This document shows, in pieces, positions 8,217-14,577 of a stretch of 64,000 nucleotides of DNA. The first letter of the stretch is position 1; every line of letters starts with the position of its first letter. The notes beneath the pieces are model-generated. The model was not told where the DNA came from. It saw nothing but the letters and a program-made list of their open reading frames with translations, and did not search any database. The position numbers were made by a program, and so were the translations under genes. The DNA is from Phellopilus nigrolimitatus (Eukaryota; Basidiomycota; Agaricomycetes; Hymenochaetales; Hymenochaetaceae): contig JAJOHG010000075.1 of NCBI GenBank assembly GCA_021029095.1, forward strand, positions 1 through 64,000, read 5' to 3'.

Positions 8217-8801
8217 GTGTCAAAGTTTCGCCGACGTCAGGTAGAGCAGGCGTTCCTATCAACGACGATGCAAGACGCCCCAAGAGGTCCAGAGAAGCAT
8301 ACAAAGCTGGGCGAAACGTTAGCTCAAGGCAGACAAAACGGCCGATACGTACACCTGCTGTCCGTTATGGCCTCCATCAACATCGACCCGCCTGTCGACG
8401 CGCAGCTCGATTCCATCTCGACCGCCCGGCACTCCCCAACTCCGAGCGCGCTGTGCTCGCCGCCTCCGACCGTTCGGCCACGGACAACGCGAGCGTGTTC
8501 GCAGCTGCAGCAGCAACAGTAACACTGTAACAGCAACATCCGCCGCCACCCCGCTCCCCGGCACCGAGCGCGCCATGCCGCCGTCACCGGCATCAATCCG
8601 TGCAAAACGCGCTGTGCCCGCAACGGACAGGGTCCCCGGCTCCGCAACGCCGTCTACGTTTACGGTGCTCGGCTAACGGAGCTCTCAGCCGATTACCGCC
8701 TGGACTCCCAAATGCTGCCGCGTCCAGCGATCCGCCCCGTCCGAGCTTGGAGAAACGCACGCAGGAACAGAAACCGACGGGGGCGTCTACGTGAAAAGTT
8801 A

Positions 8802-8960
8802 CAGGCTTTCCGGAAAACCTTGTCAGTACGCACTTTTTTTTCCAACTTTTGTACCGTATCTCCATTTGGCAATAGTTGCTATGTATAATAATAGTTGCTA
8901 AAATCAGTAATAGTTGCTTAATGCGGACACTGCCATTTGCGGGTGATCGGCGCATGGACA
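8802..8960 (+). repeat. left terminal inverted repeat
   Basis: It matches the reverse complement of 12,221-12,378 with only a handful of differences: one base in the T-run, one in the second 19-bp repeat and a few at the inner edge. It begins CAGGCTTTCCGG and contains the perfect palindrome TTTCCGGAAA at 8808-8817. Confidence 0.95.
8871..8918 (+). promoter_or_regulatory. three phased direct repeats inside the left TIR
   Basis: AATAGTTGCT occurs at 8871, 8890 and 8909, exactly 19 bp apart. The same trio occurs in mirror orientation in the right TIR. Such phased repeats inside long TIRs are plausible binding sites for the transposase or the second protein. The binding role is inferred. Confidence 0.6.
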
Positions 8961-8997
8961 CGACAAGTTCGAGTCATGAAAGACTTCAGCAGTACCC

Positions 8998-10140
8998 ATG
9001 CCCTTCCGAAAGATCAGTGAAGACATAAAAATGCGCGGAATTTGGCTATATGACAATGGCTATGTTCCTGATGACATCTGTGAAATACTTGACTTCTCTG
9101 AACGCAGTCTTCACCGCTGGCAGCACAATCTGGATACTCATGGTTCAGTAATCCCTCTAATCAATCCATCTCGTGGCCGTCCGAAGCTGCTCCGAGCTGA
9201 TATGGCTCATGATATCTTCACACTCCTTGAGGAGTCACCAGAACTATACCTTGATGAAATCCAGGAGTGGATTCTACTGTCCCATGATGTTGGAATTTCT
9301 CGCTCAGCACTCGACGAAAATCTACGTGATGCAGGCATTACCCACAAATTGCTTCGCAAGGCTGCCTCTGAGCGAGATGAAGAGGCTCGAGAAGCATTTT
9401 CCCAGTATGCACGAGACAATTGGGTGGCAGAGCAGCTGGTTTTTGTTGATGAAACCAGCAAAGACGAGCGGACGATTTACAGACACTATGGGCGTTCTGT
9501 TCTTGGGAGCCAGGCTACAACCAGTGCTCCATTTGTGCGCGGACAGCGATACAGCCTTGTTGCAGCTATTTCAGTTGATGGATACGTAATCCAGAAAGTT
9601 GTAGAAGACTCAGTTGATGGAGATATGTTCATGGAGTTCATTATTGATGATGTGGTGAGTATGAACACCTATATATTCTGAAGAAGCTTCTCATCTGTTA
9701 TAAAGCTACCTCGAATGAACCCTTGGCCAGCAGAACAAAGTGTTCTTATCATGGACAATTGTGCAATACACAAAGCGGATGAGCTCAGAGAAGCCATAGA
9801 AGGAGCAGGTATGGACATTTATTGAAGACTTCTATTGCCTTTACTTATAAGATTCTTACTAGGTTGTCGATTGGTTTATCTACCTCCATATTCCCCTGAT
9901 TTCAATCCTATTGAAGAGAGCTTCAGTACCTGTAGGTGTCTCTTGAGATTAAAGTGGCTATTTGAAATCTCTGATGATGATGTAGTGAAATCACATTTGC
10001 GGCGTAACTGGAGAAAACTACGGGATGCTGGTGACCCAGAGTTTGCTTTGCATGAAGCATGCACAAATATAACTGCAGACATGGCCAGGGGTTGGTTTAG
10101 ACATGCTGGGTATAAATTGCAGGAGCATGTATTTGTATAA
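8998..10140 (+). CDS. DD34E transposase (IS630/Tc1-mariner superfamily)
   Basis: Three exons, 8998-9654, 9706-9808 and 9863-10,140, join in frame to 345 residues; both introns are GT-AG, 51 and 54 bp. Residues 1-130 form a helix-turn-helix region (ICEILDFSERSLHRW, then GRPKLL and a second winged-helix-like part). The catalytic DDE_3-type domain follows, with Asp151 in VFVDETSKDERT, Asp236 in LIMDNCAIHK and Glu271 in YSPDFNPIEES. The 34 residues between the last two match the Tc1/IS630 spacing. The enzyme would cut and paste the surrounding element at TA sites, which fits the observed TA duplication. The ATG at 8998 is chosen because the nearest upstream ATG (8979) is out of frame. All catalytic residues are present and there is no stop or frameshift. 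Confidence 0.93.
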
Positions 10141-10403
10141 TCACACAGTATGTTGAAGTTGTCAAAGAATGTACTCTGTTGAAGGACTGCCTATACTAGC
10201 TCCTACATGATGATTATGTTATGCCTGCTATACAATGCAGAAATTATACATGCAGTTGAATGCATGCCAGGAGATAAGGCTGAAGAAAGCTATGCAACAG
10301 AATTATAGAAGAATATACAGTGTTGAGATTAGATGGGAAATCATTGAAAAATAAAAGGAAAAATACCAGTTCAAGTATAAGAGAATAAGCAAAAGGTGAT
10401 AGC
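10141..10403. other. convergent gap between the two transposon genes
   Basis: This 263 bp AT-rich stretch separates the stop codons of the two convergent genes. It contains no further gene and presumably provides overlapping 3' ends for both transcripts. Confidence 0.6.
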
Positions 10404-12128
10404 CTAGGTGTGTGGCAGCACAGAACAGCGATAATGCTTGTTAGCCTTCACAACAACAGACCAAGATAGGCTCGTAAAGCCAGCCTCCTTCAACTCCTCC
10501 TTCTGCACATGATTTACGTTGACTCCAGGTGTGAACCCAAGTGCCTCGAGCTTCGGAATCAAATTAGCATTGAGTTTGTACTCATGGACGAACTCCTCAA
10601 TGCTAATAGTCCCATCAAGAAGTGGCGAAGACGAACGTATGTCAGAAAAGCGATCCAATGAGCTCGGAGATGAGCACTTCCTGCTTTTCCTACCCATCAA
10701 AGGTGTCTCAGGAGAGCGCCCCCTTTTTGGTGTCTCACCTTGAGACGGGCCTGCAGCCACTGGCATGATAAGCGGCGGAATATCGGTGACAGGGCTTGCT
10801 TTCTTCATCCGATTTTCGGGCTTGAAAAATGCAGTACCAATCGGAATGGTGTAAATGTCGCAATGATCAGGATCCTCATCCTTGTAATATACTCAGCTCA
10901 GAATATATATGGAAGATAAAGCAATTACTTACACATAGCTTTCCCCAAGCCATCATTCGCGGGCCATGAACATCGAAGTGGCGGCCAGTAGGCCTGTGGA
11001 CCACACAGCGAACTTTTGGATGCAAATGACACTGACCGACAGGATATTGCTTTTTGAGTCTCTCAACAGAGCTCTCCTGCGCACTCGTGAGTCTTCCCTA
11101 TAGATAATATTAGCCAAGCATCCAGGTGTAGAGAGAATACTTACTTTGTTGAGCATGGGTTGATCCTTTCCATCTGCGTGCTGCGCAGCGTTCAGCAAGG
11201 CAGCCGGGTCAGTGGCGGATGTGCCAGAAGTTGGTCCAGACGCTTCCCAGGGCTACATTTATTTAATCTATATTAGCTTTCCATTTAATAATTATACATT
11301 ATAACATACCATGAGAGAGGAGTCAGTTCTCGGAGCAGGAAGTAGAATGTTGATCACGGGAATTGCTTTTCTTGCACGCTCGCAAACTTGCGCAAGCATG
11401 ACAGAAAAGCCATTCTGCGTGCCCAAAGGGTTGGGTTCTGCTTTGGCAGGTGTAATGAATTTCCATTCCAGTCTCGAAAGATCAATCAAATCCGCGCGCG
11501 TATGAATTTCGCGGGCAAGGTCGAAAAGATACTCATCATATGTCACAGCGAGGCCATGCGTCAATGGGCCTCGCTTGACAGCCCTCTGAGCCTTCAGCTT
11601 CGCCCTCTTCCCAACTCCAACAACTACGTCAGGAAGCTGGACGTAGATGTATGAGTGAAAAGACGCGGGTTTGGCCTTCCCAGGCGTCTGGTCCAAGTCC
11701 GTCTCCGTCTTCGCAACCTGTCTTCGCTTTTTTGGGACCTTCGGAGTCTCCGGAGCATCAGAGGTTGAGTCGTTGTCATCACTGAGCGTAGTCGGCATGT
11801 TGTCAGGAGAACTCAGCATCGACGTGTCGGCCAGTTTTGTTGTCACAGTGGGCCTTGACTTCATATTTGGTCCGGGCAGAGCTGGTGTTGCGAGCTTCGG
11901 AGCAGCAAGACCAGCAAAAGAATTTGAAGTGTCGAACATTGGATTGGGATCATAATGAAAATTGAATTGAGAAAAGGTATCTATGCGTGCAGTCAGCCAA
12001 GCGCAAATATGAAAAGGTAAGATGAGCTTACCGTTGTTTCCGGCCTTGAACTGCCTTTCCACCACAAATCCGTCTTCTGCGCCAAACTGGAGGAGGTGAG
12101 ACGAGTTGCTTGGTTGAAGATTGCTCAT
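10404..12128 (-). CDS. transposon second protein (505 aa), Cys/His cluster and possible SAM-like end
   Basis: Five exons (12,128-12,032; 11,980-11,310; 11,252-11,145; 11,097-10,933; 10,880-10,404) join in frame to 505 residues through four GT-AG introns of 47-57 bp. Residues about 40-115 are Ser/Pro/Asp-rich, with a basic patch KVPKKRRQ near 113-120 that could be a nuclear signal. Residues about 135-255 are a folded-looking region with SYIYVQLPDVVVG and LEWKFITPAKAE. Residues 313-340 hold a dense Cys/His cluster, GQCHLHPKVRCVVHR and GRHFDVH. After a second basic patch (RKSRK), residues about 438-500 (ISIEEFVHEYKL to VVVKANKHYRC) resemble a SAM-like helical bundle. I recognise no named family. 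The position inside the TIRs and the intact state argue for a role in transposition or its control, for example binding the TIR repeats. Confidence 0.85.
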
Positions 12129-12220
12129 ATCAATGAAATAAAGAAGTAAGAAAGTGCCAGAAGAAAGACCAGAGTAAGACTCGAGACTGAAAGTGAAATC
12201 TCGAAACGTCGCGCTTGACT

Positions 12221-12378
12221 GTCCACGCGCCGATCACCCGCAAATGGCAGTGTCCGCATTAAGCAACTATTACTGATTTTAGCAACTATTACTATACATA
12301 GCAACTATTGCCAAATGGAGATACGGTACAAAAGTTGAAAAAAAAAGTGCGTACTGACAAGGTTTTCCGGAAAGCCTG
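12221..12378 (-). repeat. right terminal inverted repeat
   Basis: This is the inverted partner of 8802-8960. The mirror-image direct repeats AGCAACTATT lie at 12,262, 12,281 and 12,300, again exactly 19 bp apart. The outer end is followed by the TA duplication at 12,379-12,380. Confidence 0.95.
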
Positions 12379-14577
12379 TAATGCACACCCTTGTCCTAGA
12401 AAACGAAGGACGTACGATGAGAGCAACCTCCTCCCAGCGTCTTTCCCCTCGCTTCGTATTTCTCACAATGGGCGACAGATAGAACTCCTAGCTGGGCGGA
12501 TAGGCCTTGTCCTCCGACTCCCGAGTTCTCTTGGACCAAACTGCGTCTTCTCTACCCGCACAGCGCACTTGCTGCGTCTCCACCTCCCGCGCGCCGTGCA
12601 CGACGTCAGAGTCGATAGGTCCCAGCCTCAAGCTTCTCCACACGGCCTCTCAGCAGGCGGCGAGGTCGATCGATGAGAGTTAGAGGAGCTGTGTGTGTTT
12701 CGTAGAGATGAGCTGGAGGACGGTTCAAGCGATGACGTCAGCACCGGTCTTTCAGCCGAGTGCGGGCTCGGCTGCCGGCGCGGACGTGCCCGAGCTGAGT
12801 GTGTTTGGTTCCGCTCTCTGGTCGTCTCCTCTTCGGAGCTGGCAGTGGGAGGCGAATGTACTCGAGCGAGGAGCTAGAGCGCGTCCCTTTTCTTTCTTCG
12901 AGCTTGAGATGCCGCTGCTGATGAAGGCAATATGTTTGGACTTATAGAAGGAGAACATGCGATGTACGTGCGGTGTCGCGTCAACCTGTCCGACAGGAGC
13001 TGCGCCATCGAGGGCGCCTCAGAGTTAGTCGATCTACTTTTTTCTTCTTTTGCGTTGCTCATATACTTATTTATCTTGTTGGCTACTGGCGTCATTCGAT
13101 CAGGCGGTCGTACACAGGACGGGCGGCCTTCTCAGAAAGCAGCATGTCGACGGTCTTGTCCGCGCAAGACGCTTGACACAGCAATGTGTGAATTTTGTTT
13201 TCTCGCTCTCGAGAAAAGCAAGCTAATTGAAACGGTCTTTTGTTTAGTCGGCTACAATTCGTGGAGAAACCAGCCGCCGAGCCTCCTATCGAATACACGA
13301 AGGCACATCGCGGCGAAGGTCTGGTTGGCGAAGTGGTGCGTGCGCTTACCTTCCTTTGTCTTTCATCTCTTTGATATCCTTTCCTCGCTATATTTAAAAG
13401 CAGCGCGAAGCCCGCGCAGTGCCCTTTCGAACTAATTCCAAATATTTGCTTCGTTCCTGTCACTAGTGAGGCCGTGTTTCTCGATCGCTCCGACAGCAAC
13501 CTTTACTGCGACCACTCTCCTTCTGCTTACATCGTCCGATGCGGGGAGACGAATATGAAGGACAAGGTGCCATGTTTAGATGTGCAGCGCGCGGCGCGCG
13601 CATACCTGCCCGAGCGCGTCGCGGGCGCGCTCGGCGCTATCCTGCGTGAGCAGCCCCGTATTTCCCTTCCCCTCTCGCCTCTGAATTGGTGTTTCATTTC
13701 AACAGTTGTGAGCACGACAGGCGCCGTCGACGCGCAGCTAGACCCTACCTCAATGGCCCGGCCTGTCCAGGCCGTCGAGCCGCGGTTGGCCGCCTCCCAC
13801 ACTCGCACGAGCGTCGACGATCGCACAGAGCCTCCAGAACGACTTCTCCAGCCCCGCGAGGGACCGTGCGAGCCGAGCAGCGTCACAGACTATTTGGGTG
13901 CGCTCTCCACTTGTCTTCCACCATATTCCCGCTTCATTTTCGTATCCTGACAGCTTCCCTTTCTTTCTCTTGCTGCAGACCAAACGTCCACCGCCAAATC
14001 CGCGTCTCATACACACCCAACATGCCCTTCTCCGCTGCGGCGCGCGCCCCGGCTTTGGCCCTGCACACCCCATCCCCACCACCTCCAGCAGCGAGCGCGC
14101 CCCCGCGGGTTCCTCCATTGCACCGAGCGGACCATCTCCGCCGCTTTCGGTTACTCGGACACGGATGACGCGAGCGCTCCTGCAGCAGCAGCAGCCGCCC
14201 CGCTCCCTCCCCGGCACCACGTGCACCGTTCCGGCCCCGGCCTCACCACGTCCCCAAGGAGTGCGCCACTCCCGGAAACCGCGTGCCCGCGGCGGACGGG
14301 AGTCCCCAGTTCCGCTACGCCGTCTGCGTCAGTGCAGACATTCATGAAGAGCGAGCGCGCGCGCGCCGACGCCGCAGCCAAAGGACGAGCCGCTGACGGA
14401 CGAGCATGCATCTGTACTGGGTGTTAAGGATAGACGTGCTGCGGGCGCGCAGAGTGTTGAGGGCATGCAGTGTGTCGACGGCGGCAGCGGCAGGGAGGGG
14501 AGGAAGAAGGCAGGGCAGGGCAAATATGATGGTCGGTCGAGAAGGTGATGAACAAGCTGTACCACCTCGGGAACTGA

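Follow-up and report, generated by a model that had tools for sequence, protein, structure and literature searches.

A two-gene, TA-inserting element of the IS630/Tc1/mariner group with a convergent second gene in Phellopilus nigrolimitatus

The stretch of DNA analysed here (the window) comprises bases 1-64000 of contig C609 in the assembly of the wood-inhabiting basidiomycete Phellopilus nigrolimitatus (56.4 Mb in 635 contigs). At 8802-12378 it harbours an element of 3,577 bp, taking TA as the duplicated target. With its two genes, this member of the IS630/Tc1/mariner group of transposons looks autonomous. Its inverted arms (8799-8960 and 12220-12381) match over 162 positions with three mismatches. 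Counted from CAGG inside the TA, the terminal inverted repeat (TIR) is 159 bp long and begins CAGGCTTTCCGG; the left TIR occupies 8802-8960 on the forward strand and the right TIR 12220-12378 on the reverse strand. The termini read TA/CAGGC...GCCTG/TA, and alignment with empty sites places the duplicated TA at 8800-8801 and 12379-12380. An earlier note on this DNA had described an intact two-gene, TA-inserting element with long, near-identical TIRs at 8800-12380. These coordinates hold, the TIR length being 159 bp, and the element indeed appears intact, with a DD34E transposase and a gene for 505 amino acids.

The transposase gene (8998-10140, forward strand) is split by two introns (51 and 54 bp) and encodes 345 amino acids without an internal stop. 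Exon 1 (8998-9654) carries the helix-turn-helix (HTH) region and the first catalytic aspartate (D151, codon 9448-9450), exon 2 (9706-9808) the second aspartate (D236, codon 9754-9756) and exon 3 (9863-10140, including the stop codon) the catalytic glutamate (E271, codon 9913-9915). The gap of 34 residues between D236 and E271 defines a DD34E transposase. The protein matched DDE_3 in Pfam (E 6.6e-26, 91.4 bits with a cut-off of 28.6) as well as HTH families, and scored 153.4 bits against the IS630 family model of NCBIfam (transpos_IS630, cut-off 100). The open frame, the three catalytic residues and scores above both cut-offs confirm the intact DD34E transposase claimed previously. PIF/Harbinger, CACTA and MULE elements have transposase families of their own and longer target duplications; a two-gene element of these kinds is ruled out by the DDE_3/IS630 transposase and the 2-bp TA. 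The pogo/Fot branch is ruled out as well, as the last catalytic residue is a glutamate and neither a CENP-B nor a DDE_1 family was found in Pfam at E 1. Members of that branch have a DDxD transposase with a final aspartate and a CENP-B-type DNA-binding region. This definition derives in part from passages of PMC7325037.

The second gene (gene 2) runs from 12128 to 10404 on the reverse strand, convergent with the transposase gene. It comprises five predicted exons, whose borders were picked by eye, and codes for 505 amino acids (protein 2). All four introns, 47-57 bp in length, have GT..AG ends. Exon 1 (12032-12128) contains the start codon and lies inside the part of gene 2 that is least conserved between the two copies described below. 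Exons 2 (11310-11980) and 3 (11145-11252) are followed by exon 4 (10933-11097), which encodes the motif YPVGQC..HP..R..H..TGRHF...W common to a group of Mycena proteins, and by exon 5 (10404-10880), which includes the stop codon. This agrees with the convergent, intact 505-residue gene of the earlier description. The start codons of the transposase gene and of gene 2 are located 37 bp and 91 bp, respectively, inside the inner edges of their TIRs, and therefore each TIR probably carries or adjoins a promoter.

A genome-wide DNA search of the assembly yielded at least 95 matches. Nineteen places among the matches listed were tabulated, with contigs C544 and C69 counted separately; both ends of the element are present in 18 of them and one end is absent on C603. 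Among these matches, a single further copy, C544:3078-6337, comprises both genes as well as the two ends; it is 92-93% identical to the window element and broken in both genes. In its transposase gene, codon 4 is a stop and the stretch encoding D236 and E271 is missing; its gene 2 has lost 9 bp and is interrupted by a stop at codon 339. An NCBI gene model of P. nigrolimitatus on this copy, DFH11DRAFT_1732016 (P0001), resembles gene 2. The public model omits 36 residues of exon 4, apparently avoiding the premature stop, and is a 466-residue record for a broken gene. A locus on C69 (34698-43091) was considered as a third, older copy and rejected. It shares the flanks of C544, is 98.7-99.7% identical to C544 at both ends and represents the C544 insertion in another version, in which about 7.6 kb replace the middle of the element. 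The rearranged locus still holds DNA of gene-2 exon 1; repeated pieces of the flank occur inside the replacement (C69:33500-43499). The window and C544 are accordingly the two independent insertions of the two-gene element among the matches listed.

Shortened derivatives are more numerous. At least 16 deletion-derived miniature inverted-repeat transposable elements (MITEs) with related TIRs are present, seven of a group MITE-A, eight of a group MITE-B and a single one on C624. MITE-A corresponds to positions 1-329 plus approximately the last 163 bp of the element; its members are 97-100% identical to each other and 95-97% identical to the window element. MITE-B members are 90-100% identical to each other and 74-76% identical to the window element. 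In four of the eight MITE-B copies the match continues beyond the inner edge of the right TIR for 37-44 bp, toward gene 2, which is a hint, though no proof, that the parent of MITE-B may also have carried gene 2. What might pass for a long element on C578 is a MITE-A copy (C578:38000-45600) into which a copia-type retrotransposon with a single open frame of 1515 amino acids has inserted. The assembly contains at least two more MITE groups of 420-490 bp with TACAG at their ends, which have TIRs of 113-162 bp and include the first part of a related transposase; no autonomous parent of these groups was found.

Within the TIRs, short subterminal repeats occupy fixed slots. Each arm of the window element contains three units of AATAGTTGCT, which lie +72, +91 and +110 from the TA and are thus spaced 19 bp apart. 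In the left arm units 1 to 3 lie at 8871-8880, 8890-8899 and 8909-8918 on the forward strand, and in the right arm at 12300-12309, 12281-12290 and 12262-12271 on the reverse strand. The motif that fills these slots depends on the lineage, as seen when one copy from each MITE group was scanned. AATAGTTGCT is found in both arms of the window element and in both arms of the MITE-A on C32; the palindrome AGTAATTACT fills the slots in the right arm of the C544 copy and is present in the MITE-B on C614 as two plus one copies.

When the joined flanks of five insertions (window, C544 and three MITEs) were used as queries, DNA continuous across the junction was found for all five. Eight targets were aligned for four of the insertions, and all eight contain a single TA; two of the eight belong to the window insertion. 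These empty sites, which the earlier note had reported as empty sister sites, prove insertion into TA. The MITEs on C195 and C32 have empty counterparts that are 99% identical over the 220-222 bp compared and collinear for approximately 1.3-1.5 kb on each side (97-99% identity on one side, 92% on the other). The counterparts are probably insertion-free versions of the locus, from the other haplotype or from a duplicate. The best empty targets of the window insertion are paralogous repeats of 87% identity rather than an allele, and for this reason the insertion in the window is not demonstrated to be recent. Recent movement, as proposed before, is thus shown for the MITEs but not for the window copy. 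TIR identity was considered as a clock and rejected, since TIR similarity alone does not serve as one. At C135:106081-106785, a paralogue of the window flank (8690-8801/12379-12490) carries a MITE of a different group at the same TA, which may be read as same-site insertion or as replacement.

Is gene 2 a component of the element? Both independent insertions found have it enclosed by the same TIRs. Queries of the assembly with the complete protein, with three parts of it and with a Mycena homologue detected no further relative. A DDE_3 search of the assembly returned 16 matches including that in the window, and 13 of the other 15 show no stop inside the match. Since gene-2 relatives were detected only in the two copies, none of these 15 other transposase matches can have a detectable one beside it. 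Gene 2 is therefore a regular part of the element family in the P. nigrolimitatus assembly, on the base of two insertions only. Two possibilities raised in the earlier note, namely that autonomous copies normally do without gene 2 and that gene 2 is a common host gene captured once, do not apply in this genome: no family copy has the catalytic region without gene 2, and no host paralogue of gene 2 was found.

Comparison of the window element with the C544 copy gave dN/dS values of 0.26 for the transposase and 0.39 for gene 2. Both genes were compared with a neutral simulation of 2000 runs in which the numbers of CpG transitions, other transitions and transversions were kept. The transposase shows 16 amino-acid changes with 24.0 ± 2.6 expected (P 0.0025), and gene 2 shows 48 with 55.3 ± 4.3 expected (P 0.05). 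Stop-making changes, counted singly, are not in significant deficit in either gene (transposase 1 vs 2.02 expected, gene 2 2 vs 1.92). The deficit of amino-acid changes is thus clear for the transposase and marginal for gene 2. The argument that conserved frames imply selection, made in the earlier note, does not stand in this form, as the sole copy available for comparison is itself broken, the signal in gene 2 is marginal and stops are not significantly rarer than expected. The spacer between the convergent stop codons (10141-10403, 263 bp) is identical to C544 at 260 positions and differs at three, and three of the four gene-2 introns are nearly identical, although synonymous sites differ by about 10%. 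CpG content accounts for part of this low divergence.

At CpG sites, 50 C-to-T or G-to-A differences point toward C544 and 19 in the other direction, as in a methylated copy. The ratio of observed to expected CpG amounts to 1.08 for the window as a whole; the window element has 0.72 and the C544 copy 0.59. It ranges from 0.73 to 0.89 in six MITE-A copies (C603 left out) and from 0.97 to 1.32 in eight MITE-B copies. These values do not fit a simple rule by which one repeat motif protects against methylation. Between the copies, protein 2 has diverged most in its N-terminal quarter (81% identity compared with 93-97% elsewhere). Together with the lineage-specific repeats, this divergence invites a reading as co-evolution. 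However, divergence between the two elements as a whole is higher at both ends (outer blocks 83-91% identical, middle 94-99%), and the N-terminal divergence may therefore merely reflect an exchange of ends.

Protein 2 has no match in Pfam at E 1. Its pieces matched only FeoA (0.036) and EF-hand (0.17) at E 10, which we take as chance, and a search against PDB sequences gave no match. In a search with the whole protein, the second copy on C544 was the only relative among the best 7,992 candidates, and residues 296-385 as query likewise retrieved the second copy only. Protein 2 is nevertheless not an orphan. It is a distant homologue of the unannotated Mycena proteins P0002-P0006 (hhalign E 5e-15), with which it is collinear over residues 137-370, from exon 2 into exon 5. 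This region spans a putative PB1-like domain and the YPV..C..P..R motif, and a C-terminal motif, I-[ED]-E-[YF]...LG[YF].PG, is found at the matching place in protein 2. Sequence identity is 21-26%. Hence the statement that gene 2 belongs to no recognised family is correct with respect to Pfam and too strong with respect to homology. The Mycena proteins are themselves nameless: P0002 matches nothing in Pfam at E 1, and P0002-P0006 together gave three weak, unrelated matches (best E 0.0027). Their joint alignment with protein 2 produced five weak matches to PDB sequences, the best of which (0.019) fell in the N-terminal part, where the alignment is poor. As expected, the Mycena family has no detected relative on the viral and prokaryote contigs scanned, and the viral structure library gave no significant match.

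A structure model of P0002, although of low confidence, has PB1 domains as its best matches and suggests a PB1/ubiquitin-like domain, to which residues 141-249 of protein 2 (11331-11657, reverse strand) are homologous. Neither the whole protein 2 nor its pieces match PB1 in Pfam. The P0002 model also predicts four confident helices within residues 321-383, forming a C-terminal helical domain that aligns with residues 437-497 of protein 2 (10431-10613, reverse strand). A motif makes this region a candidate SAM-like domain, SAM being a fold of five helices; the C-terminal piece of protein 2 had no Pfam SAM match. A model of P0001, the second copy's protein, which aligns with two of the window exons, was useless (pLDDT 31.9). 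Protein 2 is probably a protein-assembly factor and is related to unnamed mushroom proteins.

The demonstrated features of the element are its TIRs, the TA duplication, the uninterrupted DD34E transposase frame, the uninterrupted second frame and the MITE derivatives. By analogy with its family, the transposase would bind both TIRs via its N-terminal HTH region, cut the element out and paste it into TA, and MITEs that keep both ends would be moved in trans. The layout suggests that transcription of both genes would start at promoters within or next to the TIRs and run inward, so that the genes converge at their 3' ends. On balance, we lean towards an accessory role of protein 2 in transposition or expression. 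With less certainty, its predicted PB1-like self-association fold and helical C-terminal domain would make it a nuclear scaffold that assembles on the ends of the element, perhaps contacting the three subterminal repeats directly or via the transposase. It would raise transposition or expression and hence be kept by the element.

The main competing explanation, which we regard as a real but lesser possibility, is that gene 2 entered an ancestor of both copies in a single capture event, with a host gene or another mobile element as donor, and that it is a passenger without a role in transposition. The protein family also occurs in Mycena, where nothing in this analysis ties it to a transposon; there are only two insertions, 93% identical, constraint on gene 2 is marginal with stops no rarer than chance, and the MITEs have spread without gene 2 in cis. 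However, no host paralogue of gene 2 was detected in the genome, and the Mycena homologues are distant, so that no recent source is visible. Moreover, the window copy retains five splice-able exons of gene 2, and the gene takes up the space from the TIR to the transposase gene, its start adjoining the TIR. That gene 2 is no gene at all, being a chance open frame or a mis-spliced model, is hardly credible. The splice sites were picked by eye, but four introns with GT..AG ends, collinear homology with Mycena proteins across exon boundaries and an NCBI gene model on the second copy all argue against it.

A further alternative is a two-component system of the VANDAL/VANC type, in which protein 2 would recognise the subterminal repeats sequence-specifically and counteract silencing. 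PB1-like domains are not known to bind DNA, which argues against such a function; the transposase HTH region could equally read the repeats, and the element as a whole is more diverged toward both of its ends. On the other side stand the fixed-position units with a lineage-dependent motif (AATAGTTGCT or AGTAATTACT), the strongly diverged N-terminal part of protein 2 and the excess of CpG changes in C544 expected of a methylated copy. According to PMC5735166, VANC targets are often tandem repeats that vary between related elements. As the CpG content of the MITEs does not follow the motif in the expected direction, we have lowered this reading as the main explanation and consider it unlikely. 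Compared with both alternatives, the accessory role in transposition or expression remains our preferred interpretation.

Tc1/mariner elements are the textbook case of movement by a single protein. With this group the window element shares a DDE_3/IS630 transposase above curated cut-offs, the DD34E signature, TIRs, the TA duplication and MITE derivatives; it differs in its second, convergent gene, its spliced transposase gene and its 159-bp TIRs with internal repeats. MuDR of maize (mudrA/mudrB) resembles it in having two convergent genes, each started from a long TIR, but uses a MULE transposase, 9-bp duplications and an unrelated second protein. VANDAL elements of Arabidopsis differ by a Mutator-type transposase and target site, and anti-silencing belongs to VANC, being for protein 2 only a candidate function. 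They are similar in that they possess an accessory gene and that its targets are tandem repeats differing among related elements (PMC5735166). We found no two-gene fungal IS630/Tc1/mariner member and no PB1-type partner in searches of open-licence papers, which did not extend to Repbase or Dfam.

The earlier statement that classical elements carry only a transposase holds as a rule, but DD34E elements with extra genes exist in ciliates. As described in passages of PMC7325037 and PMC4724952, TBE of Oxytricha is a Tc1/mariner element with a DD34E transposase and three open reading frames (ORFs), one of them reversed and all under purifying selection, and Tec of Euplotes has TIRs of about 700 bp, three ORFs and a DD34E transposase. 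The window element thus resembles them in combining a DD34E transposase with additional coding capacity in reverse orientation and, in the case of Tec, in its long TIRs. In contrast to these ciliate elements with three ORFs and a zinc-finger or recombinase partner, it is fungal and has two genes, and its protein 2 lacks a Pfam match; those passages mention no PB1-like partner for TBE or Tec. Additional genes in DD34E elements therefore have a ciliate precedent (passages of PMC7325037 and PMC4724952) and are unusual in this transposon class. Here, the second gene may help the element to move, to be expressed or to escape silencing. We suggest only tentatively that a little-noticed agaricomycete branch of IS630-type elements is genuinely two-component, with a DD34E transposase and a PB1-like, self-assembling partner from a family known so far as hypothetical proteins, the two genes being transcribed convergently from long, repeat-bearing TIRs, and partner and repeats changing together between lineages. 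If true, this would provide the first functional hypothesis for a nameless mushroom protein family with a probable self-assembly fold, and a small, testable model of how cut-and-paste elements gain helper or anti-silencing genes outside plants and ciliates.

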